From a virus, in the IMG/VR virus record IMGVR_UViG_3300021959_004388, positions 1 through 22,624 of that record: a stretch of 22,624 nt of DNA, one strand, 5' to 3'. The number at the start of each line of letters is the position of its first letter. Position 1 is the first letter of the stretch. Shown one piece after another: positions 2,095 to 19,197 of this stretch. Under the pieces are notes generated by a model. The model saw nothing but the letters and a program-made list of their open reading frames with translations. It did no database searches and was not told the DNA's origin. The position numbers and the translations under genes are program-made.

Positions 2095-2943
2095 ATGGCT
2101 CGAGATTATTACGAAACTTTAGGTGTAAAAAGAGACGCATCACCTGCTGAAATAAAGGCCGCCTACAGAAAATTAGCCATGCAACATCACCCTGACAGAG
2201 GCGGTGATGAAGTAAAATTCATGCACATTAGGGAAGCATACGATTGTCTTAGTAATCCCGAAACAAAATCAAATTACGATTATAAAGGTCCAAAAGGCGA
2301 TCAATTCCGAAATGGCTTCCAAGGATTTGACTTTAGATGGGGTGGTGCAGGGAGTGCATTTGATGATATGGAAGACCTATTCAGGGGAATGGGGTTTGGA
2401 AATAGAAACAGAGCTCCTAGACAAAATCATTCAACCAATATAGCATTTGATGTATTTTTGGAAGATGTAATGACGGGCAAGGACGTTGCCGTGGAATTAC
2501 AGATGTCGAATGGTCAAACTAAATTGATAACGATAAACATACCAAAAGGTATTGAGTCGGGACAACAAATAAGATATCAAGGAATGGGTGAGGATCTACA
2601 TCCTGGATTTAGGCCCGGTGATTTGATTGTTACTATCCGTGTTCGGAATCACCCGGTGTTTGAAAGACACGGGGATAATATACTATGTGAGTCTAAAATA
2701 AATGTTTTCGATCTTATGTTAGGTTGCAAAACAAATATCAAAACACTCACTGGCAAGAATTTAGAAATTAACATTCCTGCTGGAACACAACCGGATACTG
2801 TCCTAAGTTGTAAAAGCGAAGGATTACCAAACATTAGAACAAAAAGAAATGGTGATCTGCTTATTAGGATTAAGGCACAGGTACCAAAAAAATTAACCAA
2901 GGATCAATTAGAAATAATTGCAAAATTAAAAAATGGAATATAA
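2095..2943 (+). CDS. DnaJ-family (Hsp40) co-chaperone, no zinc-finger domain
   Basis: The 282-residue protein opens with a complete J domain (residues 1-70), including YYETLGV, KAAYRKLAMQHHPDRGG with the essential HPD at 32-34, and a YD near 61. A Gly/Phe-rich linker follows (about 73-107). Two C-terminal substrate-binding beta domains come next, with GVESGQ-like IPKGIESGQQIRYQGMG and FRPGDLIV. The CxxCxGxG zinc repeats of class A DnaJ are absent, so this is class B, like CbpA. It should stimulate host DnaK ATPase and deliver clients to it. The gene overlaps the deformylase gene by 11 bases, forming an operon with a ClpA-type unfoldase. T4 uses gp31 with host GroEL for its capsid protein; a J protein may have a comparable folding role here, which is inference. 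Confidence 0.92.
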   Translation: MARDYYETLGVKRDASPAEIKAAYRKLAMQHHPDRGGDEVKFMHIREAYDCLSNPETKSNYDYKGPKGDQFRNGFQGFDFRWGGAGSAFDDMEDLFRGMGFGNRNRAPRQNHSTNIAFDVFLEDVMTGKDVAVELQMSNGQTKLITINIPKGIESGQQIRYQGMGEDLHPGFRPGDLIVTIRVRNHPVFERHGDNILCESKINVFDLMLGCKTNIKTLTGKNLEINIPAGTQPDTVLSCKSEGLPNIRTKRNGDLLIRIKAQVPKKLTKDQLEIIAKLKNGI

Positions 2944-3472
2944 ACTAGACATAGATTATAAATTAGGATTGCACGAAGCACTAAACCAAGCCAGCGATGT
3001 TTGGGAGTTCGATAAGGAAAAATATGATCCTGAAAAATTAGAATGGGACATGTGTAATTTTATGATCCAGCATAAAGGAATAGGGTTAGCGGCTAATCAA
3101 ATTGATCTCAAGAAACGTGTCTTTGTAATGGGTAGTGAAGATTTGCCTAACTTTCCAAAACCATTTGCTCTTTTTAACCCAACAGTGTTAGAAGCCAGCA
3201 AAGAAACAATATTAGACACCGAAGGGTGTTTAAGTTTTCCAGGATTATTATTAAAGGTTACTAGACCCACATGGATAGTAGGCCAATGGCAAAATGCCAA
3301 GGGCGAAACCAAAGAAGGTAGAATTGAAGGATATCTAGCCAAATGTTTTCAGCATGAGTTTGATCACCTAAATGGCGTAACTTTTCTTGACAGAGTGGGG
3401 AAACTGAAGTTACAATTAGCAATGAAGAAATTAAATAAGTTAAGGAAAAAAATAAAAAATGATAGAGCCTAG
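2933..3472 (+). CDS. def: Peptide deformylase
   Basis: This 179-residue metalloenzyme removes the formyl group from N-terminal formyl-Met of new proteins at the ribosome exit. All three family motifs are intact: GIGLAANQ (residues 49-56), EGCLSFPG (97-104, metal ligand Cys99) and HEFDH (141-145, two His ligands and the catalytic Glu142). The C-terminal helix of bacterial enzymes is represented by a short basic tail. Phage deformylases are known from marine T4-like phages and are thought to maintain processing of phage or photosystem proteins during takeover. The gene overlaps dnaJ by 11 bases and the clp gene by 14 bases, which implies co-translation of the three. Confidence 0.95.
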   Translation: MEYKLDIDYKLGLHEALNQASDVWEFDKEKYDPEKLEWDMCNFMIQHKGIGLAANQIDLKKRVFVMGSEDLPNFPKPFALFNPTVLEASKETILDTEGCLSFPGLLLKVTRPTWIVGQWQNAKGETKEGRIEGYLAKCFQHEFDHLNGVTFLDRVGKLKLQLAMKKLNKLRKKIKNDRA

Positions 3473-5816
3473 CCAACAACTACAAAAGATTTTTGACGAC
3501 TCAATTGAAATAGCAAAAAAGTTCAAGCACAAACTTATTACAATTGAACATCTTACTTTTGCAATCTTTTCTGATAAAGATTCGTACGAAGGCTTAAAGG
3601 CATATGGTGCTGATGTTGAATATATTAGATCAAATATTGAACACTATCTAAAGAACAATCTAAAAGATATTATAACAACAGAAGAAATTTTTGTTCCTAA
3701 AAAAACAAACACCGTCGAACGTGTTTTAAATAGATGCTTCACACAAGTGTTATTCAGCGGTCGTAATCAAATGGAAACTGCTGATGTTATTATAAGCATA
3801 TTATCTGAAAAGAATTCATTTGCATTTTACTTCCTTACCAAAGGTGGTATAACAAAAGAAAAATTTGTACAGCATTTCCAAGATCATTTCATAGGTGATG
3901 AAGATCCATTTGCAGAAGAAGGAAGAGAAGCAGCATTGTCAAACGATCAAATGGATAAAATTATTAACACTTTCTGTGATAATCTATCCTTAAAAGCAAA
4001 ACAAAAAGTTATTGATCCTGTAATTGGACGTGACGATGAAATAGAAAACATAGAACTAGTACTCGCTAGAAGAAATAAATCCAATGTTTTATTAGTTGGT
4101 GATCCTGGGGTGGGTAAAACCGCTATAGCAGAAGGACTAGCAAGAAAGATTTTTGAAAAGAAAGTTCCTAAGTTTATTCAGGATCATTCCGTTTTTAGTT
4201 TGGATATCGGAGCACTTGTTGCTGGTTCAAAATACCGTGGCGATTTTGAAGAAAGAATTAAAGCGGTTCTTATGGCGCTGGATAGAAAAGGAAAAATTAT
4301 TCTTTTCATTGATGAAGCACACATGATGAGTGGTGCAGGAACTGCGAGTCAAAATTCAAACGATCTAGCAAACATGCTTAAACCTGCTCTTGCTAAAGGA
4401 AATCTTAAAGTGATTGCTTCAACTACCTGGGAGGAATATCGCAAGTACTTTGAAAAGGATCGTGCTTTAATGAGACGTTTTCATAGATTGACCATTGACG
4501 AGCCTACAGCAGAACTTACTGTAAAAATTATCAAGGGCCTAAAAAAGTATTACGAGAATCATCACAATGTTGCCATTACCGATGAAGCGATCGATCAGGC
4601 AGTTAAGTTATCAGTAAAATACATGGCTGATAAAAAACTACCTGACAAGGCTATTGATATCATAGACTGTGCATCAGCAAGATACAAATTAAATGATGAT
4701 CCAGTTGAAGAAGGAGTACAACAGATAGTCGATGTTGAACAAATTACATACGAACTTTCTAAGATGATTAATATGCCTTTAGAAACTGTTGCCCAGAAGG
4801 AAAGTAAAAATCTTTCAGGCCTTGAAGGCTCAATGAAGTCAGTGGTATATGGCCAGGATAGTGCCGTTGAAACACTCTTGGATAAAATATTTGTTGCCCA
4901 AGCAGGATTAAAATCACCTAATAAACCAATCGGTAGTTTCTTATTCCTTGGACCAACAGGCTGTGGTAAGACCGAAACAGCGAAACAACTTGCTGAAAAA
5001 ATGGGCATGACACTTTTACGTTTTGACATGAGTGAATATCAAGAGAAACACTCGGTGGCAAGATTAATTGGTGCTCCTCCGGGATACGTTGGTTATGAAG
5101 AAAATGCAGGACAGTTGATTACTAAATTGCAAGAAAGTCCAAACGCTATACTATTATTAGATGAAATAGAAAAAGCACACCAAGATGTATCTAACATACT
5201 TTTACAATTTATGGATAATGGATTTGTTACGGGAAGCAACGGCAAGCAGGCTGACGGTAGAAACACAATTCTTATTATGACATCAAATCTCGGTGCTGCC
5301 GATAATGAAACAAATACAATTGGCTTTGATGACCTCGAAAAAGATGATGAGGACGAGAAGGCAGTTAAAAAATTCTTTACTCCTGAATTTAGAAACAGAT
5401 TAGATGGTACTATTAAGTTCAATAAATTATCATCAAGTGTTATGTCAAGCATTGTAAAGAAATTTATAAGCGACTTAAATGCACAATTAAAAGATAAAAA
5501 TATTTTAATTAATGCAGAACAGGATGCTATTGATTGGTTATCTAAAGAAGGGTATAGTCCTAAGATGGGTGCTAGACCATTGTCAAGAATAATCGATAAC
5601 AAGATTAAAACACCTTTAAGTAAAAAAGTATTGTTTGGCGATTTAGTTAATGGCGGAAAGGTTACTATTAGCATTTCGGATAATGAACCTGTTTTTGACA
5701 TCCAAGAGATGCCTAAACCTCTTACAAAGGCTGAAAAGAAAGCACTTAAAGCAAAAGCCCTAGAGGAAAAAGCAAGCAAGGAACAGCAGGAAAATGAACA
5801 AACTTCCGACACCTAA
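3459..5816 (+). CDS. clpA: ClpA-type AAA+ protein unfoldase
   Basis: The 785-residue protein has a Clp N domain (about 1-145), AAA+ module D1 with Walker A GDPGVGKT (214-221), Walker B LFIDEA (282-287) and an RR pair at 339-340, then module D2 with Walker A GPTGCGKT (498-505) and Walker B LLLDEI (565-570). The long coiled-coil middle domain of ClpB is missing, so it is ClpA/ClpC-like and not a disaggregase. In D2, IGF occurs at 621-623, shortly before FFTPEFRNRLDG. This is where ClpA has the IGL loop that docks onto ClpP, so the protein could form a hybrid protease with host ClpP. A Lys/Glu-rich tail ends the protein. It overlaps def upstream by 14 bases and the next gene by 23. Confidence 0.93.
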   Translation: MIEPSQQLQKIFDDSIEIAKKFKHKLITIEHLTFAIFSDKDSYEGLKAYGADVEYIRSNIEHYLKNNLKDIITTEEIFVPKKTNTVERVLNRCFTQVLFSGRNQMETADVIISILSEKNSFAFYFLTKGGITKEKFVQHFQDHFIGDEDPFAEEGREAALSNDQMDKIINTFCDNLSLKAKQKVIDPVIGRDDEIENIELVLARRNKSNVLLVGDPGVGKTAIAEGLARKIFEKKVPKFIQDHSVFSLDIGALVAGSKYRGDFEERIKAVLMALDRKGKIILFIDEAHMMSGAGTASQNSNDLANMLKPALAKGNLKVIASTTWEEYRKYFEKDRALMRRFHRLTIDEPTAELTVKIIKGLKKYYENHHNVAITDEAIDQAVKLSVKYMADKKLPDKAIDIIDCASARYKLNDDPVEEGVQQIVDVEQITYELSKMINMPLETVAQKESKNLSGLEGSMKSVVYGQDSAVETLLDKIFVAQAGLKSPNKPIGSFLFLGPTGCGKTETAKQLAEKMGMTLLRFDMSEYQEKHSVARLIGAPPGYVGYEENAGQLITKLQESPNAILLLDEIEKAHQDVSNILLQFMDNGFVTGSNGKQADGRNTILIMTSNLGAADNETNTIGFDDLEKDDEDEKAVKKFFTPEFRNRLDGTIKFNKLSSSVMSSIVKKFISDLNAQLKDKNILINAEQDAIDWLSKEGYSPKMGARPLSRIIDNKIKTPLSKKVLFGDLVNGGKVTISISDNEPVFDIQEMPKPLTKAEKKALKAKALEEKASKEQQENEQTSDT

Positions 5817-6887: not shown

Positions 6888-7568
6888 ATGCGAGATCTAT
6901 TGGACAAACTACAACTATTAGAAGGTTTCATGCCCAAGGAAATGGAGGGTGAGACTGAATTTGAATTTACTGGTGATGATGGTGAAACAGGCTTCGGAAC
7001 ACTATACTACAAAGCACAAATTAAGCAAAGCGATGAGCATGGTTACTATGCTGAAGTTGATCCTAACTCGCTAAGAGGTGAAGCAGAAGGCGACGGCAAC
7101 AATAAACTAGACGACGAACTAGCAACTGCTGTTGTCCAATCCGATGGTCCGGATCACGAAGCAGCAATGGATGCTGCATTTGACGATGCTATGGATATTA
7201 TCAAGAATTCCGATAACAAATACTCGCAAGGGGAAAGCGCAGACGAATCCGACGAACAAACATTTGAAGGTGAGGAGTTCTACGAGTATTATGGTTTCTT
7301 ACCTTGGCACGAAGATATTGTAGATGAAGCAGAATACAGAGGACGCAAGGTTAAACTTGGCAAACCCATGCAGGGTGATGTTAAAAAGTTTAAGGTATAT
7401 GTCAGAGATCCAAAGACTAAAAATGTAAAGAAAGTAAATTTTGGTGATCCTAATATGCGTATTAAAAAATCTAATCCAGCACGTAGAAAATCATTCCGTG
7501 CTAGACACAATTGTGATAACCCGGGTCCAAGAACAAAAGCACGATACTGGTCATGTAGGAAATGGTAA
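6888..7568 (+). CDS. Modular phage protein: capsid-targeting-like N terminus, acidic middle, basic Cys tail
   Basis: The 226-residue protein begins MRDLLDKLQLLEGF, in which QLLE|G fits the (L/I)xE cleavage rule of T4 prohead protease. Residues about 23-130 are very acidic. From about 148 the charge flips to basic: YRGRKVKLGKP, then FKVYVRDPKTKNVKKVNFGD. The protein ends in RRKSFRARHNC and RYWSCRKW, two Cys separated by 13 residues. This basic C-terminal module recurs, from memory, in many marine phage proteins of unknown function. A good ribosome binding site (AAAGGGA, 6874-6880) precedes it. An acidic core with cleavable ends would suit a prohead core or internal protein, which is inference. 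No enzyme motif is visible. Confidence 0.75.
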   Translation: MRDLLDKLQLLEGFMPKEMEGETEFEFTGDDGETGFGTLYYKAQIKQSDEHGYYAEVDPNSLRGEAEGDGNNKLDDELATAVVQSDGPDHEAAMDAAFDDAMDIIKNSDNKYSQGESADESDEQTFEGEEFYEYYGFLPWHEDIVDEAEYRGRKVKLGKPMQGDVKKFKVYVRDPKTKNVKKVNFGDPNMRIKKSNPARRKSFRARHNCDNPGPRTKARYWSCRKW

Positions 7569-7571
7569 CTG

Positions 7572-7907
7572 ATGAAACTAAATGAATTATTCTCACCCAT
7601 AGGCGCACCATCGGATAACGATGACATAAACTATATCGAAGATCTAAAGATATTCATCGATAGTGATAATGAAGTAATGAGTAAAGTATTGTTTCCTGCA
7701 ATTAAGAAACACATGAAATATAAAGGTCATCCTGACGCTTATAAAATATATATCAAGCCATTAGAACAGTGTAAAGAAATGTACTGTAATAAATTTTCTA
7801 TAGAAGACATGCAGGACAAAATTAATAAGGAAAATATTATAGCATTAGCGAGAACTATTTCCGGAGAACAGGAAAAATACATAGAGCGTGGCGACTATGA
7901 AGATTAG
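7572..7907 (+). CDS. Unknown protein with MKLNELF N terminus
   Basis: The 111-residue protein starts MKLNELFSPIG, nearly identical at the first eight residues to the protein encoded at 10847 (MKLNELFSEA) although the rest is unrelated. Unlike that protein it lacks a Glu at the expected prohead-protease site. The remainder is predicted to be helical (KVLFPAIKKHMKYKGHPDAY, then NIIALARTISGEQEKYIERGDYED) and contains two Cys eight residues apart in the middle. It follows the previous stop by three bases, with AGGAAATGG as a possible ribosome binding site, and overlaps the nucleotidyltransferase gene by 11 bases. The function is not recognised. Confidence 0.75.
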   Translation: MKLNELFSPIGAPSDNDDINYIEDLKIFIDSDNEVMSKVLFPAIKKHMKYKGHPDAYKIYIKPLEQCKEMYCNKFSIEDMQDKINKENIIALARTISGEQEKYIERGDYED

Positions 7908-8511
7908 AGAATTATTCGAAGCAGATACTGACAAACACGTAACCTTCTGCTTTGGAAGGTTTAATCCTCCTACCTTAGGACACAAGGAAGTTTTCAAAAA
8001 AATGAAGGCACAAGGAGGAGACATGAAAATCTTTACTACCATGAGCCAGGACGCAAAAAAGAATCCACTAGACTATTCTGCCAAGGTAGATTTTATTAGA
8101 AAGATACATTCTGAATATGCAGATAATGTAGTTGAGGACACGAACCTAAACACAATAACCAAGGTTGCACAATATCTAAATGACCAAGGCTACACACATG
8201 CAACATTCGTGGGTGGAGATGATAGAAAGAATTTATACGATCAATTGGTTGCATACAACGGAAAGGAAGAGGGAAAGAAGGGTCCTTTGGAAAACAAATA
8301 CAAATTTGAAACTCTTGAGTTTGTAAGCGCAGGCGCAAGAGAGGACGGAGCAGAGGGTGTTGAAGGCATAAGCGGAACCAAAGCAAGAGAAGATGCCGCT
8401 AATAACGATTTAAAAAGTTTCACAGCACACACAGGTGCTGGAGAACATGCGGAAGAATTATTCGCCGCAGTAAGAAAAGGAATGGGATTATCGGATAATA
8501 CCGAGGATTAA
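7897..8511 (+). CDS. Nucleotidyltransferase (cytidylyltransferase/NMNAT-like) with capsid-targeting-like N terminus
   Basis: The 204-residue protein carries GRFNPPTLGH at residues 20-29, the (H/T)xGH nucleotide-binding motif of the nucleotidyltransferase superfamily, then VGGDDRKNLYD in the middle and ISGTKARED near 152-160, corresponding to the ISxTxxR motif. It should transfer an AMP or CMP group to a phosphorylated substrate. An NMN adenylyltransferase role in NAD metabolism is one possibility, but specificity cannot be read. The catalytic fold is preceded by MKIRELFEAD, which ends in LFE, a plausible prohead-protease site. ATG 7897 is preferred to GTG 7888 because it begins exactly at this repeated motif. 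It overlaps the upstream gene by 11 bases. Confidence 0.85.
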   Translation: MKIRELFEADTDKHVTFCFGRFNPPTLGHKEVFKKMKAQGGDMKIFTTMSQDAKKNPLDYSAKVDFIRKIHSEYADNVVEDTNLNTITKVAQYLNDQGYTHATFVGGDDRKNLYDQLVAYNGKEEGKKGPLENKYKFETLEFVSAGAREDGAEGVEGISGTKAREDAANNDLKSFTAHTGAGEHAEELFAAVRKGMGLSDNTED

Positions 8512-8525
8512 ACAAGGGGAAAACA

Positions 8526-9467
8526 ATGGGTATAATGGATAAAGAAAGATCGGCATATACTAATCCGGCAGGTGGAGAACTTGCCCGAATGGGAAGAATA
8601 CTAATGGATAAATCAGTCACAGTCAAGGATGACGCACTATCAAACGTGCTAGGTAGACTCGGTGACGAACTAACAAGATACGGTGAGCCTGGCGGAGCAT
8701 CAAGCATAGACGAACTTTCTAAAAAGGTTAGACTGAGTAAGGAACAGATCTTGAAGATGATGAAATGGGCTCAACAGCAAAAGGACACTTCATTACAAAA
8801 AGTTAAGGATCCGGATCCTAAGCCAGATGAAGATGAAAAAGAAGAATCTGTAGCAACCGAAAATACCCCTATCGGACATACAGATGATGAGCGTAACATG
8901 ATTCGCAAGGAACTTTACCAAATGGCAAAGTATGCCAAAGAGATGTTTGAAATGCTAGAAGACCTACCCGCTGACAGTGATTTCCCCCACTGGTGGCAGG
9001 CAAAGGTTGTTAAGAGCCTACAAATGATCAGCAAGGCCAAACATTACTTGGAAAATGAACTAAACGTTCCTGATGTTGATGGAGATAGAACAGAAGAGGA
9101 CATGCACGACAAGGACAACATAGGATTTTCCGACAAGGAAATCAAGATGGCCTTTGGTGTTTTAAACGATCCAAGATACAAGGGCGGTAACTACACGGGT
9201 GCAGTGGAAGTGATAAACAAAATTGCTCCTGGACTAGCAGACCATCCTAGTGTAGCCAAAGCATTAAAAAGAACAAACGAAGCAGTATGTTCAGAATGTG
9301 GCAAGGCTCGCTTTACGGCACTACCAGAAGAAATGCAAAAGCAGTATGAAAGTGTTAATGAAGAAAAGCAAAAGGGCGTTGATGGCAAGGTATGCTGGAA
9401 AGGCTACAAGCGCATGGGCACCAAGATGAAGGGTGGCAAACGAGTTGATAATTGTGTTAAGATGTAA
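8526..9467 (+). CDS. Modular phage protein with CxxC and basic Cys tail, unknown function
   Basis: The 313-residue protein joins several segments: an N-terminal part (1-90) with a helical SIDELSKKVRLSKEQILKMM region, an acidic linker (DPKPDEDEKEE), a helical domain with FPHWWQAKVVKSLQMISKAK, a segment with DKEIKMAFGVLNDPRYKGGN and LADHPSVAKALKR, a CSEC zinc-knuckle-like pair, and a basic end with CWKGYKRMGTKMKGGKRVDNC. These segments resemble building blocks reshuffled among marine phage proteins, judged from memory. The N terminus (MGIMDKERSAY) lacks the MKxxELF motif of its neighbours. AAGGGGAAAACA precedes the ATG. There is no enzyme signature. A role in the head or prohead core is possible by context. 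Confidence 0.75.
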   Translation: MGIMDKERSAYTNPAGGELARMGRILMDKSVTVKDDALSNVLGRLGDELTRYGEPGGASSIDELSKKVRLSKEQILKMMKWAQQQKDTSLQKVKDPDPKPDEDEKEESVATENTPIGHTDDERNMIRKELYQMAKYAKEMFEMLEDLPADSDFPHWWQAKVVKSLQMISKAKHYLENELNVPDVDGDRTEEDMHDKDNIGFSDKEIKMAFGVLNDPRYKGGNYTGAVEVINKIAPGLADHPSVAKALKRTNEAVCSECGKARFTALPEEMQKQYESVNEEKQKGVDGKVCWKGYKRMGTKMKGGKRVDNCVKM

Positions 9468-9667
9468 TGGAGATAGAAGAGTTAAAAAGACTTGCGGGCA
9501 TCTATGAACGTCATGGCTGGAAAGCATATGACGGACCCAATCTATCGATCACAGGCACGGAAAAACAATATCTAGAAAAGAAACACAACATACAACCAGG
9601 AACCCCTGAATGGTTTAAGTTGTGGTTCGCACTACCAAAACTAACAGGCGAGAAACCCATAGAATGA
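9467..9667 (+). CDS. Small phage protein with ELKRLAGI N terminus
   Basis: The 66-residue protein starts within a TAATG overlap with the upstream stop and ends in an ATGA overlap with the downstream start, so it is translated within a coupled string. MEIEELKRLAGIYE carries the short helical ELKRLAG motif I associate with N termini of marine T4-like phage proteins, and GIYE could serve as an (L/I)xE protease site. The rest (GTPEWFKLWFALPKLTGEKP) looks like a compact, Trp-rich small domain. The function is unknown. Confidence 0.7.
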   Translation: MEIEELKRLAGIYERHGWKAYDGPNLSITGTEKQYLEKKHNIQPGTPEWFKLWFALPKLTGEKPIE

Positions 9668-10641
9668 GAGCATACGAGATCATATCTGAAAAAGCAGTTA
9701 GCAAAAAGCAGCAGCAGTTCTTTGGTATTGTAAGAGCAATGCAAAAGGGCGATATGAAAAAGTCTGGCGAAGCAGGCAAAGTTGCTAAAGATATGAAAAA
9801 GAGTGATGTCAAAGACTTTGCTAAAACCAAGCACAAGGGATTACCTACCAAAAAGAAAACATCTGAAGAAGCAGCAGGTGTTGGCATAGTTACAAAACAG
9901 AATGCAACAGCAGACGTTCCCGTAGGCGGCGAATACATGAACGTTAAGAAATTATTCCCCAAGAAGAAAAAGAAAAAGGAAAGCATAGCCTATGAGGATA
10001 TGTTCCAAGGACTAAATCCTAAATCAGAAATATATGTTGATATGGATGGTGTTCTAGCAGACTTCTTTGGTGAGTGGAAGAAGTTGGTAGGCAAGGACTG
10101 GAGAGAAATTAATAAGGACGAAATCGAACCAGCACTTAAAAAAATTAGAGACGAGGAAGACTTTTGGTTAAACATTCCTCTTACATCAAACGCAAAAAAA
10201 TTACTCGGCATTATTAAACAGGTTAAAGGAAACTACAAGATTCTAAGTTCACCATTGGCTAACGATCCTAAATCGGAACCACACAAGCGCGAATGGATTG
10301 AAAAGAATCTAGACTTCTTCCCACCAACTGAAGTCATCATAACAAAGGATAAGGCGAAGTATGCGACAAACCCCGACGGCACACCTAATATCCTCATTGA
10401 CGATTATGGTGTTAATATTGCAGCGTGGGAAAGTGCCGGAGGCATAGGGTTCAAGCACAAGGATCACAAGTTTGAGAGGACTGCTAAAAAACTAAAGGCA
10501 GAGATAGAAGAAAGTTTCCAAAGCCTAATTAGAAATTACATAGAAGAAAAGTGGAGTGCCAAATACAAGAAAAGCATCAACTGCTCTAATCCAAAGGGCT
10601 TTAGCCAAAAAGCACACTGCGCAGGACGCAAGAAGAAATGA
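9664..10641 (+). CDS. Fusion protein: capsid-targeting-like peptide, DUF3008-like domain, HAD-type 5'-nucleotidase, basic Cys tail
   Basis: The 325-residue protein begins MRAYEIISEKA, close in pattern to the T4 internal-protein targeting peptide. Residues about 12-62 (SKKQQQFFGIVRAMQKGDMKK and KDFAKTKHKGLP) match the DUF3008 family. A linker with GVGIVTKQNATADVPVGGEY and a run of lysines follows. From about 123 there is a HAD phosphatase: YVDMDGVLADFF (motif I, Asp126 and Asp128), ILSSP (motif II), IITKDKAKYA (motif III Lys) and LIDDYG (motif IV). This resembles NT5C-type deoxynucleotidases that dephosphorylate nucleoside monophosphates. The end has SINCSNPKGF and a second Cys 11 residues after the first. 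ATG 9664, in an ATGA overlap, is chosen over GTG-type starts further upstream. Confidence 0.82.
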   Translation: MRAYEIISEKAVSKKQQQFFGIVRAMQKGDMKKSGEAGKVAKDMKKSDVKDFAKTKHKGLPTKKKTSEEAAGVGIVTKQNATADVPVGGEYMNVKKLFPKKKKKKESIAYEDMFQGLNPKSEIYVDMDGVLADFFGEWKKLVGKDWREINKDEIEPALKKIRDEEDFWLNIPLTSNAKKLLGIIKQVKGNYKILSSPLANDPKSEPHKREWIEKNLDFFPPTEVIITKDKAKYATNPDGTPNILIDDYGVNIAAWESAGGIGFKHKDHKFERTAKKLKAEIEESFQSLIRNYIEEKWSAKYKKSINCSNPKGFSQKAHCAGRKKK

Positions 10642-10838
10642 GAATATTTGAACTAGTTGAAAACTTTGCTGATGGTAAGAAGAAGGGCAAGAGCCGTCCA
10701 GGACGTGTAAAACGTGCTGGTGCTAGTTGTAAAGGAAGCGTAACTAGCCTACGTAAAAAGGCTAAAAATGCTAGTGGAGAACGTGCTAAAATGTATCACT
10801 GGTGCGCAAATATGAAAAGCGGACGCAACAAGGGCTAA
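10638..10838 (+). CDS. Small basic Cys protein with MRIFELVE N terminus
   Basis: The 66-residue, highly basic protein starts in an ATGA overlap with the previous stop. MRIFELVEN fits the repeated N-terminal pattern M-(K/R)-x-x-E-(L/I) and contains LVE as a possible cleavage site. The remainder is a single module: GKKKGKSRPGRVKRAGASC, a Lys-rich helix, then MYHWCANMKSG, with two Cys 24 residues apart. The positive charge suggests nucleic-acid contact. It reads like a stand-alone copy of the Cys tails found fused to its neighbours. The function is unknown; a packaged DNA-binding protein is one possibility. Confidence 0.7.
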   Translation: MRIFELVENFADGKKKGKSRPGRVKRAGASCKGSVTSLRKKAKNASGERAKMYHWCANMKSGRNKG

Positions 10839-10841
10839 ATA
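10834..10841 (+). promoter_or_regulatory. Putative late promoter box GCTAAATA
   Basis: GCTAAATA uses the TAA stop (10836-10838) of the upstream gene. By T4 geometry, transcription would begin at the A of ATG 10847, giving a leaderless message. AAGGG (10829-10833) lies upstream and would serve read-through transcripts only. Confidence 0.45.
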
Positions 10842-10846
10842 ATAAT

Positions 10847-11260
10847 ATGAAATTAAACGAACTATTTTCAGAAGCATATACGCCTACAAAAGACAAGGCT
10901 GATTACCACGCGAAACAAAAAGCACTACAGGATCTACAGGCAGATCCAAACACATCAAAGGATCCTGAACTTAAAAAAGAAATAATGAAGCGTAAAGCAG
11001 CATTGGACAAGGATAAAGAAAAGATGGAATCTGCCACAGCAGGCGCTACGAGTTCTGGTAATATAGCAAGTGTAGAAGCACCACATCTAAGCCCAGGCAA
11101 AGCACGTGGTAAGAAGTCATATACAGGAAGTCCTGGTAAATCAGGTACAAAAGCACCACCACAACCTGTGGTTAAACAGCCAAAAGCAGCCAACGGAACT
11201 GCTAAAAATGCGCTGGATATGAAGAATAGTATTTTTGGTGAGAACCCGGTAAGAAGATAA
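10847..11260 (+). CDS. Low-complexity modular phage protein with MKLNELFSEA N terminus
   Basis: The 137-residue protein starts MKLNELFSEAY, sharing its first eight residues with the protein at 7572. A charged helical part (residues 15-60) is followed by ATAGATSSGNIASV and a Gly/Ser/Pro/Lys-rich, probably disordered stretch (PHLSPGKARGKKSYTGSPGK). It ends with DMKNSIFGENPVRR. There are no Cys or enzyme motifs. An in-frame start at 10802 would overlap the upstream gene and lose the repeated N-terminal motif, so ATG 10847 is preferred. The disordered, basic character and shared leader peptide fit an internal head or core protein, by inference. Confidence 0.7.
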   Translation: MKLNELFSEAYTPTKDKADYHAKQKALQDLQADPNTSKDPELKKEIMKRKAALDKDKEKMESATAGATSSGNIASVEAPHLSPGKARGKKSYTGSPGKSGTKAPPQPVVKQPKAANGTAKNALDMKNSIFGENPVRR

Positions 11261-11263
11261 ATA
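11256..11263 (+). promoter_or_regulatory. Putative late promoter box GATAAATA
   Basis: GATAAATA incorporates the TAA stop at 11258-11260. The projected start near 11269 leaves an 18-base leader with AAAGGAA (11275-11281) before ATG 11287, which is the best late-promoter geometry in the window. Confidence 0.55.
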
Positions 11264-11286
11264 CTTACTATACAAAGGAAACTACG

Positions 11287-12228
11287 ATGGACTTTAGAAA
11301 TATAATTAAAAAGATGCGCGAATTAGATCCTACTACGCCAGGTCAGGATTTACAGCATTTCACACAACTGGCGGAATCAACAGGTATTGCGCTGGGTGCT
11401 AAAGAAGTAGTTACCGAAGCGAAAAAAGATTCAAAAGTAAAAGAAGCAGCAAAACCAGACTTTCTTGATATGGACAAAGATGGCGACAAGAAAGAGCCTA
11501 TGAAGAAGGCTGCTAAAGATGCTAAGAAAAAGAAAGAGCCTGTAAAAGAAGCAGAACAAGTTGTCAAAGCAGAAAAAGGCGACAACAAAGAAAAAATGCC
11601 TAGCAAGAAAGAAGTTTTATTAATGTGTGGCAAGGGCATGACTAAAGCAGCAATTTGCAAGGAATATTCAGGCTGCGATCAAGAAAAATTAAAAGAAATG
11701 ATTGAGTCTTGTATGGAAGAATACAAGAAGAAAAAGAAAAACGAATCCGTTACATTTGAAGACATGGACGGCGAAATAGTTGAGGCTAAGAAATCAGCAG
11801 CACAGAAGAAAGCACAGGAAAAATTTAAGAATATGGTAAAAGGCAAGAAGTCTGATGATAAAGAAATGGACGAAGCCAAAGAACCTAAAAAGAAAAAAGA
11901 AACGGTCAAGGAATCCGTTGAACCTAAGATGTCATTCGTTGAAATGATGAAGATGGTACGCGAAAGCGGCGGACAGCAGGCTATCGATCCTATGGACGAT
12001 GTTCTTTGGAACTGGGCAAACAGAGTTGCTGTTTCAAAAGTTGAAGAAACAAACAAGCAGGAAATTTTTGCTGCAATGCTATATGAAAGAAACGGCGGAC
12101 GTTTTGAAATGTATGACGTTGTTGAAAAAGGCTTAAACGAAGGAAAGGATTGTAACTGTGGTCCAGATTGCGAGTGCAAAGGCAATTGCGGCGACGATTG
12201 CAACTGTGGTCCAAACTGCGGCAAATAA
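11287..12228 (+). CDS. Lys/Glu-rich modular phage protein with metallothionein-like Cys tail
   Basis: The 313-residue protein is dominated by Lys, Glu and Ala, as in prohead core (scaffold) proteins. It begins MDFRNIIKKMRELD, and QLAEST near residue 29 offers an (L/I)xE protease site. LDMDKDGDKKEPM is an EF-hand-like Asp cluster. The middle holds a possible four-Cys unit (MCGKGMTKAAIC, SGC, ESCMEEY). A globular segment (VLWNWANRVAVSKV to FEMYDVVEKGL) precedes the end. The last 27 residues contain eight Cys in two CNCGP repeats, like a small metallothionein. It is the last gene before the terminator and has its own late-type promoter and a good ribosome binding site. The function is unproven. 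Confidence 0.75.
   Translation: MDFRNIIKKMRELDPTTPGQDLQHFTQLAESTGIALGAKEVVTEAKKDSKVKEAAKPDFLDMDKDGDKKEPMKKAAKDAKKKKEPVKEAEQVVKAEKGDNKEKMPSKKEVLLMCGKGMTKAAICKEYSGCDQEKLKEMIESCMEEYKKKKKNESVTFEDMDGEIVEAKKSAAQKKAQEKFKNMVKGKKSDDKEMDEAKEPKKKKETVKESVEPKMSFVEMMKMVRESGGQQAIDPMDDVLWNWANRVAVSKVEETNKQEIFAAMLYERNGGRFEMYDVVEKGLNEGKDCNCGPDCECKGNCGDDCNCGPNCGK
12148..12213 (+). repeat. Tandem 18-base repeat encoding the Cys-rich tail
   Basis: GATTGTAACTGTGGTCCA (12148-12165) recurs as GATTGCAACTGTGGTCCA (12196-12213), one mismatch, 48 bases apart and in frame. Each copy encodes DCNCGP. This suggests that the Cys tail grew by internal duplication. Confidence 0.7.
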
Positions 12229-12317: not shown

Positions 12318-12593
12318 ATGTCAAGACATTATGGACCAGAAGAAAAAGCAAAACTAGATCGCTTAATCAAAGAAGGATCAAACGTACTAAGAGAAGTTGA
12401 AGATTTAAATGAAGGTTTAAAAGATACTGTTAAAGCAGTAGCAGAAGAATTACAAATCAAACCAAGCACAATTAACAAGGCAATTAAAATTGCACACAAA
12501 GGTGATTGGTCAAGACACAGTGAAGAATGGGAAGAAATTGAAAGTATCCTAGGAATCACAAATAATCTTCCATCAGATAATTCAGCACAATAA
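12318..12593 (+). CDS. dsbA: DsbA-like double-stranded DNA-binding protein
   Basis: The 91-residue, mostly helical protein resembles the DsbA family of T4-like phages, small dsDNA-binding proteins reported to aid late transcription in T4. The supporting region is LNEGLKDTVKAVAEELQI followed by KPSTINKAIKIAHKGDW, which looks like a helix-turn-helix-like unit with an acidic lead-in, and then EEWEEIESIL. Length agrees with T4 DsbA (about 89 residues). It has a near-consensus promoter and a good ribosome binding site, so it is probably made early. The assignment is by overall pattern and not by a catalytic motif. Another small regulatory DNA-binding protein is possible. Confidence 0.65.
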   Translation: MSRHYGPEEKAKLDRLIKEGSNVLREVEDLNEGLKDTVKAVAEELQIKPSTINKAIKIAHKGDWSRHSEEWEEIESILGITNNLPSDNSAQ

Positions 12594-14004: not shown

Positions 14005-16668
14005 ATGAGTTACGTAGATGCGTTCTATGATCGCAACGAAGACATTATTCGAATTGTCGAAAGAAAGAACGGCAAGAGAAGTTTCACAGAGTATCAACCC
14101 CGACACATATTCTATTATAAAGATCCAAGAGGAAAGCACCAATCAATCTATGGTGAAGCACTACAGCGAGTAAGTGCAAAGAATATTAAAGAACTTCGCA
14201 AGGAACTTGCGATCCATTCCAACAAGAAATTATACGAAAGCGATATTAATCCTATCTATCGTTGTCTTGAAGACAACTATCTAAACATTGATGCACCAAA
14301 ACTGAATGTTGCATTTTGGGATATTGAGGTTGATTTCGATCCGGAGCGTGGCTATGCTTCTCCTGAGGATGCATTCATGCCAATCACTTCCATTGCGGTG
14401 CATTTGCAGTGGATGGAAGAACTAATCTGTCTTGCTATTCCACCTAAGACACTATCGATGGCAGAAGCACAAAAGGCAATTGAAGGTATTCCAAACACAA
14501 TACTTTATGAAAACGAAGCGGATATGCTTGATGCGTTTCTTGACCTGATACAGGATGCGGATGTGCTAAGTGGCTGGAACAGTGAAGGTTATGATATGCC
14601 CTACACTGTTAACCGTATTATTAAAGTTTTAAGCAAAGAAGATACAAGACGTTTGTGCTTGTGGGATCAATATCCTAAAAAAAGAACATATGAAAAGTTT
14701 GGTAAGGAATCTACAACATATGATCTAGTTGGTCGTGTGCATGTGGATAGTTTGGAACTTTACAGAAAATACAACTATGAAGAAAGACACACATATCGAC
14801 TAGATGCTATTGGCGAACTAGAAGTAGGCGAAAAGAAAACCGTGTATGAAGGAAGCCTTGATGCACTATACAACAATGACTTTAGAACGTTCATTGAATA
14901 CAACAGGCAGGATACTGCACTGCTTGATAAACTGGACAAGAAACTAAAGTTTATTGACCTTGCAAACACTATTGCACACGAAAACACTGTGCTTATACAA
15001 ACCACAATGGGTGCTGTTGCTGTTACAGAACAGGGCATTATCAACGAAGCACACAGACGTGGAATGATTGTTCCGAACAGAGTGAAACGTGAGCCTGGCT
15101 CAGAGCCGGCAGCAGGTGCTTATGTTGCGTATCCTAAGAAGGGCATACACGAGTGGATTGGATCGGTTGACTTGAATTCACTGTATCCTAGTGTTATTAG
15201 AGCATTGAACATGGGGCCTGAAACTGTTGTTGGGCAACTACGGCAGGATGGTACCAAAGCACACATTGATGGACAAATGGCCAAGGGCAAATCCTTTGCA
15301 AGTGCATGGGAAGGTATGTTTGGTAGTGTTGAATACAGTTCTGTAATGGAAAAGGAAATAGGCAGACAGATCACAATTGATTGGGAGAACGGTGACAACG
15401 ATACATTAAGTGCCGCACAGATATATGATTTAATCTATGAAAGCAACCAACCTTGGATGCTGAGTGCCAATGGCACAATCTTCACTTATGAAAAGGAAGG
15501 CGTGATACCCGGCCTACTCGCACGTTGGTACAAGGAACGTAAGGAGATGCAGGCCAAGCAGAAGGAAAGCCAGAACGCAGGCAACAAGATTGAAGAAGAA
15601 TACTGGGCAAAGCGACAGTTGGTCAAGAAGATTTTGCTCAACAGTTTGTATGGTGCAATCCTAAATCCAGGCTGTAGATTTTTCGACAACAGGATTGGTC
15701 AGAGTGTTACACTTACAGGACGAAGCATTACCAAACACATGGCTGCTAAAATCAATGAGATCGTAACAGGCGACTATGATCATACAGGTAAGGCAATTGT
15801 TTATGGTGATACAGATTCTACATACTTTAGTGCATATAGCACACTTAAGAAAGATATTGACGCAGGAACTATTCCTTGGACAAAGGATAGCGTTGTAGAA
15901 CTGTATGACACTATCGGCGAAACTACAAATGCCACATTTGGAAAATTTATGAGCCAAGCATTTCACTGTCCCAAGAAGCGTTCGGAAGTGATTGCGGCTG
16001 CTAGAGAAATTGTTGCGAGCAAAGGACTGTTTATTACAAAGAAAAGATATGCAGTTCTCTACTATGACATTGAAGGTTTTAGAACAGACACAGAGGGCAA
16101 GCCAGGTAAAATTAAGGCGATGGGTCTCGATCTCAAGCGTTCGGATACTCCTGTTGTCATCCAAGACTTCCTAAGTAACGTATTGGAAATGGTTCTGTCA
16201 GGAAAAGAAAAGGAAGATGTATTGGATTACATTACAGAATTTAGAACAGAATTCAAAGCACGTCCTGGTTGGGAAAAAGGTTCGCCTAAACGTGCAAACA
16301 AGATTACTGAGTATGAAGCCAAAGAAAAGAAAGCAGGAAAGGCAAATATGCCTGGACACGTTCGAGCAAGTATTAATTGGAACACACTTAAACGCATGAA
16401 CGGTGACAAGTATTCAGTGAATATCACAGACGGTGCAAAGGTCATTGTCTGTAAGGTTAAGGATAACCCAATGGGTTACACAAGTGTGGCATATCCGGTA
16501 GATGAACTAAGACTGCCGGAATGGTTTAAGGATTTACCATTCGATGATGCTACTATGGAAAATACAGTTATCGATGAAAAACTTAAAAACTTAATTGGTG
16601 TATTGGAATGGGACATTAGTCAAACTCGAAATGACAATAACTTTAATAAATTATTTGATTTTGAGTAA
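14005..16668 (+). CDS. 43: Family-B replicative DNA polymerase (T4 gp43-like)
   Basis: The 887-residue enzyme is close to T4 gp43 (898) and undivided. The 3'-5' exonuclease has FWDIEVD (residues 104-110, Asp106 and Glu108), WNSEGYDMPY (191-200) and the Exo III motif YNRQD (299-303). The polymerase has motif A VDLNSLYPS (388-396), motif B KKILLNSLYG (541-550) and motif C YGDTDS (600-605). All catalytic acids are present, so it should be proofreading-competent. The C terminus ends KLFDFE, like the clamp-binding MFDF tail of the T4/RB69 polymerases, and the clamp gene follows directly. A strong ribosome binding site lies after a hairpin in the leader. Confidence 0.97.
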   Translation: MSYVDAFYDRNEDIIRIVERKNGKRSFTEYQPRHIFYYKDPRGKHQSIYGEALQRVSAKNIKELRKELAIHSNKKLYESDINPIYRCLEDNYLNIDAPKLNVAFWDIEVDFDPERGYASPEDAFMPITSIAVHLQWMEELICLAIPPKTLSMAEAQKAIEGIPNTILYENEADMLDAFLDLIQDADVLSGWNSEGYDMPYTVNRIIKVLSKEDTRRLCLWDQYPKKRTYEKFGKESTTYDLVGRVHVDSLELYRKYNYEERHTYRLDAIGELEVGEKKTVYEGSLDALYNNDFRTFIEYNRQDTALLDKLDKKLKFIDLANTIAHENTVLIQTTMGAVAVTEQGIINEAHRRGMIVPNRVKREPGSEPAAGAYVAYPKKGIHEWIGSVDLNSLYPSVIRALNMGPETVVGQLRQDGTKAHIDGQMAKGKSFASAWEGMFGSVEYSSVMEKEIGRQITIDWENGDNDTLSAAQIYDLIYESNQPWMLSANGTIFTYEKEGVIPGLLARWYKERKEMQAKQKESQNAGNKIEEEYWAKRQLVKKILLNSLYGAILNPGCRFFDNRIGQSVTLTGRSITKHMAAKINEIVTGDYDHTGKAIVYGDTDSTYFSAYSTLKKDIDAGTIPWTKDSVVELYDTIGETTNATFGKFMSQAFHCPKKRSEVIAAAREIVASKGLFITKKRYAVLYYDIEGFRTDTEGKPGKIKAMGLDLKRSDTPVVIQDFLSNVLEMVLSGKEKEDVLDYITEFRTEFKARPGWEKGSPKRANKITEYEAKEKKAGKANMPGHVRASINWNTLKRMNGDKYSVNITDGAKVIVCKVKDNPMGYTSVAYPVDELRLPEWFKDLPFDDATMENTVIDEKLKNLIGVLEWDISQTRNDNNFNKLFDFE

Positions 16669-17471: not shown

Positions 17472-19019
17472 ATGAAAAAACCAGTCAATCTAACACCATT
17501 ACAGAAAGACTACGCAGTGTATTTGCCTGCTATTAGTTCTTTCTTCAGCACTTATATTGCTAAACAACGTAAGGAAGAGTTTGTTCCTAAAGAACGTATT
17601 CCGCAGGGTTTTGATCGCGGCATCGAAGGTATGAACTTTTTAAATGAAGAAGAAGGATACTTTACATACAAGTATGGATTGTATTCAGCAGGACACGCAC
17701 AATTAAATCTTGATAAGACAATGGATCAGGATGCAATGGTACAGAGTCGAGATAGAGGAAAGACCATGATACTTGGTGACTCGGGTGGATATCAGGTTGG
17801 TAAGGGTGTTCTTAAGTTTGATTGGCTAAACTTTGAAGGTGCGGCTGCTAATAAGGTTAGAGATGATATTCTTAATTGGCTTGAACTAACAGCAGATTGG
17901 TCAATGCTACTTGACGTTCCGACTTGGGCATGTGACCACATTCATTCGCCTAAGACAGGACTAAAGAGTTTTGAGGACTGCTTGGACAAGACACGTTTTA
18001 ACAACAAGTATTGGCTAGAGCGCAGACTTGGTGCTACTAAATTCCTAAACGTATTACAGGGTTCAGACTGGGATACCGCTGAGAAGTGGTATGAAGGTGT
18101 TAAAGAATTCTCCGATCCTAAGATATGGAAGGACAAGGCCTGCGAAGGTTGGGCTATGGGTGGTGCTAACATGTGCAAGATGCCAATTACACTAAGACGC
18201 TTAATGACTATGAAGTTTGATGGCATGCTGGAAGGCAAGGACTGGATGCACTTCCTAGGCACGGCACAACTTGATTGGTCATGCTACTTAACTTCAATTC
18301 AAAGACAGGTTCGCAAACACATCAATGAAAACTTTACAATCAGTTTCGACTGCGCAAGTCCTTTTATTGCTACAGCACACGGGTTGGTATATACTAACTC
18401 CCAACACACAAGTAAGCGTTGGTCAGTTATTATGGACAAGGCCCCTGATAATAAGAGTCTTGCCAAGCGGCATGATATTCCTTTCCCGTTCGAAAGCGAA
18501 ATTGGCAGACGCCTTAGCATCGCGGACATATGCCACTATGCGCCAGGAATGCTTAACAAGATCGGTAAGGAAGGAAAAACATCGTGGGATAGTTTTGGTT
18601 ATGCACTTATGATGGCACACAATGTTTATCAACACATTGTTGCTGTTCAACGTGCTAATAACTTAACTGATATTGAATTGGCTAAAGAACGTCCAGACTG
18701 GAGACGTTGGAGAAAAGTTAAAGAAGCAGACAAGAGTGATGAATACAGTGATTGGGTGCCACGCAACATCCTATACTTTGATAGATTCGTAGAAGAACTG
18801 TTTGAGTGCAAGACCAAGGATGAAGCATTTGCTATGATTAAACTAGCAGACAGTTTCCTTAAGGATCTCGAAGGTGCAAGGCTGCGTGGTGGTGTTACTA
18901 ACGAATTTAACAGGATGTTCGTGGAGGTAGACAACGATGGAGAAGAGAAAACGCCTTGGTCAGATGATCGAGAAGATGGCGAGTTGGACAAATTGGAGAA
19001 ACAACTACAGGAGGCGTGA
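17472..19019 (+). CDS. dpdA: TGT/DpdA-like guanine transglycosylase
   Basis: The 515-residue protein has the TIM-barrel signatures of the queuine/7-deazaguanine transglycosylases: DSGGYQ (residues 103-108, Asp103 as general acid), LDVPTW (147-152), LQGSD (195-199), GWAMGGA (226-232), FLGTA (261-265) and SFDCASP (291-297, with Asp293 in the nucleophile position). These enzymes swap guanine for a 7-deazaguanine base; DpdA members act on DNA. The CxCxxC-plus-His zinc site of tRNA enzymes is not seen after the nucleophile. Phage context and the nearby FolE and QueD-like genes favour DNA as substrate, but tRNA modification cannot be excluded. A long, charged C-terminal region follows (residues about 400-515). 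Confidence 0.8.
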   Translation: MKKPVNLTPLQKDYAVYLPAISSFFSTYIAKQRKEEFVPKERIPQGFDRGIEGMNFLNEEEGYFTYKYGLYSAGHAQLNLDKTMDQDAMVQSRDRGKTMILGDSGGYQVGKGVLKFDWLNFEGAAANKVRDDILNWLELTADWSMLLDVPTWACDHIHSPKTGLKSFEDCLDKTRFNNKYWLERRLGATKFLNVLQGSDWDTAEKWYEGVKEFSDPKIWKDKACEGWAMGGANMCKMPITLRRLMTMKFDGMLEGKDWMHFLGTAQLDWSCYLTSIQRQVRKHINENFTISFDCASPFIATAHGLVYTNSQHTSKRWSVIMDKAPDNKSLAKRHDIPFPFESEIGRRLSIADICHYAPGMLNKIGKEGKTSWDSFGYALMMAHNVYQHIVAVQRANNLTDIELAKERPDWRRWRKVKEADKSDEYSDWVPRNILYFDRFVEELFECKTKDEAFAMIKLADSFLKDLEGARLRGGVTNEFNRMFVEVDNDGEEKTPWSDDREDGELDKLEKQLQEA

Positions 19020-19020
19020 T

Positions 19021-19197
19021 ATGGGTGACTATACACAAAGGCTGAAATGGTTAAGGGAAACACACCAATACCTAAATAAGAAGATCGATACTATGGAGAA
19101 GACCGGTAAATTTACTGATGAGGAAATTTCCGAAATGAAACGAGATCGACTCAAGATGAAGGATGAAATCGAGAAACTGGAGAAGGAACACGCATAA
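19021..19197 (+). CDS. DUF465/YdcH-like small coiled-coil protein
   Basis: The 58-residue protein starts at ATG 19021 with AGGAGG six bases before it, which is the strongest ribosome binding site in the region. An in-frame extension upstream would lie within the transglycosylase gene and is rejected. The sequence is one charged helical hairpin: RLKWLRETHQYLNKKIDTME, a short FTDEE turn, then RDRLKMKDEIEKLEKE, matching the DUF465 pattern of LKxxRLxLKDEI. It ends in a TAATG overlap. Its constant place behind the transglycosylase suggests a partner or assembly role, by inference. Confidence 0.7.
   Translation: MGDYTQRLKWLRETHQYLNKKIDTMEKTGKFTDEEISEMKRDRLKMKDEIEKLEKEHA

Follow-up and report, generated by a model that had tools for sequence, protein, structure and literature searches.

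Positions 6888-12228 of the 22,624-nt stretch of viral DNA analysed here (IMG/VR record IMGVR_UViG_3300021959_004388, our record G000; hereafter the window) carry nine genes, named below by their first position (Table 1), which probably form a head-cargo cassette of a marine T4-like phage whose products use peptides borrowed from the prohead. The cassette would represent a variant of the T4 internal-protein (IP) system that, as far as could be found, has not been described before. The window is a fragment of a T4-like phage genome, and a marine origin is suggested by its relatives. The closest named phages by DNA polymerase were Sinorhizobium phage Phosso (51% identity) and Agrobacterium phage Atu_ph07 (46%), and no named phage matched the window in a DNA search at near identity. 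A 79.8-kb contig (G001, reached via L007) represents practically the same phage, while two 146-kb relatives, G002 and G003, encode polymerases 70% and 68% identical to that of the window over the full length. Both relatives encode a gp21-type protease (PF03420) and the capsid protein gp23 (PF07068). They were the only 2 of 20 related records searched to match either family, the other 18, G001 among them, being contigs of 32.6 to 117.5 kb.

The first-pass annotation had proposed that five neighbouring genes share an N-terminal leader, with looser versions at 6888 and 9467. All seven starts were found where it had placed them, the two looser versions included. For 7897, 9664 and 10847 the ATG sits within a slightly longer GTG-started frame, and our own gene caller, which weighs codon usage and the ribosome site, chose the same starts in the window. 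A strict pattern derived from the noted genes themselves, M-(K/R)-x-x-E-(L/I/F)-(F/I/V/L), matched 5 of 29 window genes and, when the motif search was extended to the rest of the available genome, 5 of 97 genes of G001. The latter are the same five genes, so that the leader was not equally common in non-virion genes of the 80-kb contig, all of its matches lying inside the cassette. Internal methionines yielded no strict match (0/172 in the window and 0/419 in G001, two overlapping sets), and shuffling of residues 2-40 gave expectations of 0.01 and 0.04 matches respectively, with p at the floor of 1000 shuffles, a value that is optimistic because the pattern was made from the same genes. Across 80 related loci, which are enriched in cassettes through having been fetched by similarity to a cassette protein, the strict pattern was matched by 68 of the 1558 genes called; counted over distinct N termini, the figure was 47 of 1032. 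The further proposal that the proteins are unrelated beyond the leader was borne out by BLAST among the nine cassette proteins, which returned nothing at E < 0.01; the best pair, 7572 and 10847, aligned over the first 30 residues (E 0.03), that is, over the leader.

The two copies of MKLNELFS, in 7572 and 10847, show synonymous differences at four of eight codons with every residue unchanged, and the 30 bases upstream of them are unlike each other. Among 12 relatives of 7572, some of them 18-29% identical, M1 and E5 are two of the seven invariant columns; in seven aligned nucleotidyltransferases related to 7897, M1, R4, F7 and E8 are invariant. Leader residues are thus kept in relatives of these two proteins at 18-39% overall identity. 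Since the codons differ synonymously while the residues stay, the comparison indicates that the leader is conserved and selected at the protein level. It could instead be supposed that the similarity lies at the level of DNA or translation, as a start-region signal, a recombination seam or a recent duplication of 5' ends, in keeping with leaders placed exactly at gene starts and modules that have visibly been shuffled; the codon comparison largely refutes this explanation, to which we give hardly any credence.

The first-pass annotation had compared the leader to the targeting peptide of T4 internal proteins. A resemblance to T4 head propeptides holds, with the qualification that the leaders lie nearer to those of gp24 and Alt than to that of IPIII: the T4 record carries MKTYQEFIAE (IPII, IPIII), MKTFKEF (IPI), MELITELFDE (Alt) and MAKINELLRE (gp24). 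In the IPIII tag, residues 4 and 7 are reported to matter for targeting and residues 8 and 10 for processing (PMC9026906). Of the (L/I)xE said to be usable in most copies, candidates are ISE in 9664, LVE in 10638 and LFE in 7897; 7572 has LNE at residue 5 alone, and the 10847 leader has FSE at the end of the tag in addition to LNE at residue 5. Two further T4 genes begin with tag-like peptides, gp61.1 (18966-19130, MKTFKEFIKE) and gene 2 (gp2, 76061-76885, MAIFQIINE).

Evidence from virions comes from homologues of 7897. This protein matches PF01467 (E 1.7e-7, passing the family cut-off) and a PHROG cytidyltransferase (5e-39), and its nucleotide-binding motif G.R.NPPT.GH is kept in 7/7 aligned nucleotidyltransferases, so that by sequence it qualifies as a member of the CTP_transf_like/NMNAT-type nucleotidyltransferases. 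Cyanophage homologues, 33-38% identical over 190-198 residues in alignments that begin behind the leaders, have been reported in purified virions of S-SM1 (PMC3037559), S-SCSM1 (PMC9602691, and the labels of the sequence record), S-SZBM1 (PMC9146016, Table 1) and S-CREM2 (PMC10665884, Table 3). All four start with an IP-type leader: MKKFSAFLNEA, MKSFLQFLKEA, MRFRQFIIEA and MKNFSSFLTEA, respectively. The same tag is found on further S-CREM2 virion proteins, namely the S-adenosylmethionine (SAM) hydrolase gp6 (MKDFDSFLEE), gp13 (MKDLHSFLTE) and the kinase gp14 (MKRFDAFLTE). With 52 of 219 S-CREM2 open reading frames (ORFs) reported as detected, 4/4 IP-type leaders (p=0.003), 6/9 matches to a looser pattern (p=0.0065) and 5/9 matches to the spacing register described below (p=0.037) fall on virion proteins. 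In S-SCSM1, seven of the nine cassette ORFs 89-97 are virion-labelled. A shared start could alternatively act as a docking or degradation signal for the phage's ClpA-like ATPase, whose gene lies upstream, or for another cytoplasmic partner, and have nothing to do with heads; with homologues occurring in virions and tags matching T4 head propeptides, this seems very improbable.

Two tag-like peptides occur at other positions in cyanophage proteins. S-SCSM1_93 (MK867354.2, 91626-91835), a virion-labelled DUF3008-like protein, has KKRTFKEFLEYIE at its C terminus, not its N terminus, and S-CREM2 gp12 (OR473000, 7704-10313), annotated as a Cas9-like nuclease and present in the virion, has LRFASFMAEA at residues 17-26; the true start of gp12 may lie downstream of the annotated one.

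A second prohead peptide was recognised inside 10847-11260. In relatives, gp23 has a presumed maturation junction (marked ↓), taken from the sequence alone as the last L/I-x-Glu before the conserved block; gp23 of G003 starts MSELFES and would be cut at YLAE↓NATAGATSAGNVATLNRVILPVIRR. In 59 of 80 related head loci the N-terminal region of gp23 could be read; it occurs in 28 distinct forms, every one of which has YLxE↓xxx(A/G)GA(S/T)(S/T)AGNVATLNRV. The arm of 10847-11260 matches this junction together with the mature N terminus of the relatives' gp23 (YLAE↓TATAGATSAGNVATL), bearing a gp23-like junction and mature start E↓SATAGATSSGNIA, with 68.75% identity to gp23 of G003 over 16 residues. Nearly the same string is present in 10847-11260 and its relatives (ES↓ATAGATSSGNIASV), and stands immediately behind the leader in the shortest of these relatives (MRLREIIE↓AATSGATSAGNVA and MRFREILE↓AATAGATSAGSVA). 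Glu precedes the presumed cut (P1) in 21 of 21 distinct sites of this junction motif (J; 19 in cassettes, 2 in gp23) although the search pattern did not require it; a site whose surroundings recurred was counted once, and the sequence upstream varies, yet several of the sites are orthologous. Candidate protease-cut peptides are EKMESATAGATSS and, at the gp23 junction, YLAENATAGATSA. A profile of 16 cassette J segments, from which gp23 segments and those of other length were left out, was significant among 486 proteins only for gp23 of G003 (1.2e-7) and of G002 (7e-5). Pfam gave no Gp23 match (PF07068) for 10847-11260 and, judged by sequence, the protein copies a capsid peptide and is not itself a capsid protein.

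The same relation was seen in the cyanophages. When the first 60 residues of S-CREM2 gp160, a virion protein, were compared with the proteins of its own phage, gp23 alone, apart from gp160 itself, matched significantly (75% over 24 residues, 2e-8), and the same held for the virion-labelled S-SCSM1_97 (1.3e-6). Such imitation would be lineage-specific: TATAGATSAGN of the window group fits gp23 from related phages, whereas the arm of S-CREM2 gp160 and S-SCSM1_97, GFTG...EGP.AGYDPLM, fits the gp23 encoded by the respective phage itself. Through the arm the protein might dock at the inner shell; alternatively, the arm might simply mark a cut site.

A third peptide recalls the scaffold protein gp22. 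Eighty gp22 sequences, read in 80 loci and in at least 77 cases assigned to gp22 from the N terminus alone, end in (D/E)(I/L)(R/K)(R/K)LAG(L/I) or in that motif plus one residue, and 9467 begins with this C-terminal motif (ELKRLAGI; (E/D)(L/I)(K/R)RLAG in gp22 of relatives). Elsewhere the motif is uncommon. After removal of proteins whose first or last 25 residues already occurred in an earlier entry, 1497 distinct proteins remained, in which 22 matches were found against 1.3 expected: 2 in gp22, 11 at the start of members of the 9467 family, 4 in arm proteins and 5 in others. In the four arm proteins the motif stands directly before the junction (DIIKLAGMEES↓ATAGAT). The RLAG motif is not present at the C terminus of T4 gp22. 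No report of gp23-arm or gp22-tail imitation was found in the open-licence literature, few of the searches being close to the topic.

An arm copying the mature N terminus of gp23, a scaffold tail on 9467 and the small, very basic nature of several members would also suit assembly partners, that is, prohead core or head-structural proteins that the leader brings into the core or onto the inner shell, that aid assembly or DNA compaction there and that are not delivered to the host. Two members match enzyme families, cytidylyltransferase and HAD 5' nucleotidase, which would be odd for pure structure, and the T4 internal proteins and Alt, many of which are reported to be ejected, use such tags (PMC9026906). 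A purely structural role is considered rather unlikely.

C-terminal modules connect the cassette proteins in another way. In 4/9 cassette proteins the C-terminal stretch is basic and holds two or more Cys, compared with 1/103 other phage genes (p=1e-4), some of the 103 being counted twice, as window and G001 copies. Such modules recur behind different domains. In the 1497-protein set, a leader in the broad definition was found in 45/83 module proteins and in 132/1414 others, a difference whose significance is inflated by related sequences. Of 35 distinct N termini among relatives sharing the 6888 module, 11 are KTFxxYLxE (IP-type) and 12 are MEHFVRIVME-like; the occurrence of both before one module indicates that leaders have been exchanged in front of it. 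One such protein, in G003, also occupies the same place as 6888. Proteins at G006 17441, G011 76379 and G003 1742 form one family whose start, M[RK]DxxDxIxNIxxIY(E/D)S, is like the long 6888 leader.

The spacing of the tag (i, i+3, i+4, Glu) was found in 12/16 N termini of nucleotidyltransferases and 15/23 of J-motif proteins compared with 60/1396 others. The T4-derived register alone, compared with shuffles, was tried and rejected: observed and shuffled counts were 3 and 0.28 in the window (p 0.003), 3 and 0.79 in G001 (0.051), 4 and 1.07 in both G002 (0.027) and G003 (0.024), 5 and 1.19 in G006 (0.003), 1 and 1.41 in G007 (0.76) and 3 and 1.14 in G011 (0.11).

A number of observations weigh against a head-cargo cassette. 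The register is moderate in N termini joined to the 6888 module (9/35) and the 10638 module (9/38) and rare in those of HAD proteins (5/47). P3 is hydrophobic in 14/21 J sites and is L or I in just 7/21; in the window's own junction, EKME↓S, it is Lys. In 7572 no Glu follows the hydrophobic pair (MKLNELFSPIG), the sole (L/I)xE being LNE at residue 5, and 8526 and 11287, inside the interval, have no such leader. Searches of the window and of the 80-kb contig that represents this phage gave no match to a gp21-type protease or to gp23. The cassette is absent from the syntenic place in Atu_ph07 and Phosso, the nearest isolates by polymerase. In S-SCSM1 the leader did not predict the virion label (IP-type 1/2, looser pattern 1/8, register 1/5, with 48 virion-labelled among 236 genes from our own caller; the record has 282 coding sequences), and a clear leader is missing from the majority of the virion-labelled cassette proteins of that phage. 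The window's strict pattern had no match in S-CREM2 or S-SCSM1. A family with MxFxELN starts (S-CREM2 gp159, S-SCSM1_96, S-SZBM1_135) was undetected in three virion sets; an EL-type start alone is no proof of virion membership. Carry-over during purification is allowed for by the authors of the S-CREM2 (PMC10665884) and S-SCSM1 (PMC9602691) studies.

Atu_ph07 and Phosso were tried and rejected as proteomic support. The genes at their syntenic place, some of them annotated as tail fibre, lack leaders, with Phosso gene 216 as the sole possible exception; for this reason, the reported virion gene cluster of Atu_ph07 was not used.

The first-pass annotation had proposed a set of proteins packaged in the head and delivered with the DNA. 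Packaging draws support from the virion homologues, the gp21-type protease of the relatives and the capsid junction on one protein; the S-SCSM1 leader result, the MxFxELN family and the leaderless members speak against it. It is about an even question whether only part of the cassette is cargo (7897, 9664, 10638, 10847 and perhaps 6888), with 7572, 8526 and 11287 as cytoplasmic or structural neighbours and the number of tagged proteins overstated. The missing downstream Glu of 7572, the absence of leaders from 8526 and 11287 and the non-detection, in cyanophage virions, of MxFxELN proteins from the same cassette favour such a division, whereas 8526 and 11287 carry segments also found in virion proteins: the C-terminal module of 8526 recurs in S-CREM2 gp160 (the CWxGY...NCVK module), and segment KPDFLDMDKDGDKKEPMKKA of 11287 (11452-11511) has a near-identical copy in the virion-labelled S-SCSM1_92. 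Membership of 7572, 8526 and 11287 in the cargo is doubtful.

For the head-cargo cassette that we consider probable, targeting and placement in this phage, as well as cleavage and delivery into the host, are proposed by analogy. The cargo would comprise a nucleotidyltransferase, an HAD nucleotidase-like protein and small basic proteins carrying a peptide of the gp24/Alt/IP class, with hydrophobic residues at i, i+3 and i+4 followed by Glu. In the infected cell the tag would bind the prohead core and the protein would be enclosed. A gp21-type protease would probably cut the tag off after Glu, and the matured, often basic and Cys-containing proteins would stay beside the DNA and might be carried into the next host; the steps of this series are known from T4 (PMC9026906). 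The enzyme domains might act early on nucleotides or nicotinamide adenine dinucleotide (NAD). Further prohead peptides would be reused as a capsid junction and arm in 10847-11260 and as a scaffold motif in 9467-9667. Whether cargo is loaded by prohead imitation, the gp23 arm behind Glu and the scaffold RLAG motif docking in shell and core contacts besides the leader, with release by the maturation cut, seems to us evenly balanced.

If correct, a readable tag would help to predict which genes of unknown function in marine T4-like phages encode proteins that are carried in the particle and act first in the host. The T4 internal-protein principle would extend to nucleotide- and NAD-type enzymes of ocean phages, which would offer one explanation why these enzymes keep being found in cyanophage virions, and imitation of a capsid arm and a scaffold tail would point to a new principle of loading. 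The main texts of four cyanophage papers, searched by word, mention neither a targeting peptide nor a leader, a propeptide or an internal protein. By title, no literature on "capsid targeting sequence" concerned marine T4-like phages, "cyanophage" co-occurring in a reference only.

The T4 internal proteins (IPI, IPII, IPIII and Alt) share with the cassette a short N-terminal peptide on unrelated proteins, some of them basic, a hydrophobic pair mostly placed before x-Glu, a gp21-type protease in the lineage and genes that vary between relatives. The window leaders differ in being mostly one residue shorter, of the gp24/Alt kind, and the window set in sharing modules and having members that copy gp23 or gp22 peptides, targeting and cleavage here being proposed by likeness. 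INELLRE of the T4 gp24 propeptide and LNELFSE fit one pattern, but gp24 is a shell protein and the window proteins match no gp24 in Pfam or PHROGs. The cyanophage NMNAT/cytidylyltransferases found in virions by mass spectrometry (S-SM1, S-SCSM1, S-SZBM1 and S-CREM2) are homologous enzymes with a leader in a similarly composed cassette; their leaders are of IP type, not ELF type, and the stretch from leader to domain is longer. In phage P1, N-terminal residues of DarB reportedly suffice for head loading, but its authors state that the Dar proteins have no consensus (PMC9024508), whereas one is shared here. Phage SPN3US gp53 and gp54 are described as strongly diverged head proteins whose identical first 15 residues include a protease motif; they differ in having long propeptides and A-X-E specificity and in being paralogues, not unrelated proteins (PMC5694885).

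Table 1. Genes and features of the cassette (upper rows) and its surroundings in the window.
Feature	Position	Strand	Remarks
226-residue protein	6888..7568	+	long leader MRDLLDKLQLLEG at 6888-6926; C-terminal basic di-Cys module FRARHNCDNPGPRTKARYWSCRKW
111-residue protein, predicted helical	7572..7907	+	leader MKLNELFS
Cytidylyltransferase/NMNAT-like protein	7897..8511	+	leader MKIRELFEA at 7897-7923
313-residue protein without leader	8526..9467	+	C-terminal module KVCWKGYKRMGTKMKGGKRVDNCVKM at 9387-9464
66-residue protein	9467..9667	+	starts MEIEELKRLAGIYE (9467-9508), scaffold-like motif
Leader, DUF3008-like and HAD protein	9664..10641	+	MRAYEIISE at 9664-9690; C-terminal module SINCSNPKGFSQKAHCAGRKKK
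66-residue very basic protein (isoelectric point 10.9)	10638..10838	+	leader MRIFELVE (10638-10661) joined to KSRPGRVKRAGASCKGS...WCANMKSG
137-residue protein	10847..11260	+	leader MKLNELFSE (10847-10873), insert, capsid-protein-like junction and arm
Junction Glu61 (11027-11029) and arm SATAGATSSGNIASVE	11027..11077	+	inside 10847-11260
313-residue protein, start MDFRNIIKKM (no typical leader)	11287..12228	+	Cys-rich C terminus
DnaJ	2095-2943		upstream of ClpA-like gene; left surroundings, outside cassette
Peptide deformylase	2933-3472		between DnaJ and ClpA-like gene; outside cassette
ClpA-like ATPase	3459..5816	+	left surroundings, outside cassette
Two more genes	starts 5794, 6485		between ClpA-like gene and 6888
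DsbA-like transcriptional regulator	12318..12593	+	right border of cassette
DNA polymerase	14005-16668		after DsbA-like regulator

An AlphaFold model of 7572 (mean pLDDT 83, first 20 residues below 60) had no PDB match at E < 1 and a single viral match below 0.001, to an uncharacterized protein. Sequence searches of the PDB with 7897 and 9664 returned none. The DUF3008-like stretch of 9664 lies below the Pfam cut-off and is followed by an HAD deoxyribonucleotidase-like (5' nucleotidase) domain at about 10015-10509; no literature pairing DUF3008 with phage was found. Isoelectric points exceed 9 in three of the nine cassette proteins (9664, 10638 and 10847) and range from 4.9 to 7.4 in the other six. 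PADLOC gave no matches for the nine.

Elsewhere in the window, a spanin-like gene and an overlapping frame that has a lipoprotein-like signal (MILSLSLTLMLTSGCS) at 943-1672 may be a pair of the Rz/Rz1 kind, and GTP cyclohydrolase I is encoded at 21486-22172. A QueE-like radical SAM protein, below curated cut-offs, is present in G003 (36692-37585, equivalent to L100 17692-18582), and together with the window's cyclohydrolase hints at a 7-deazaguanine pathway. Between about 54.8 and 70.7 kb, mostly on the minus strand, G003 also carries a row of genes resembling radical SAM proteins by their cysteine motifs, identified by eye, which is unusual for a phage.

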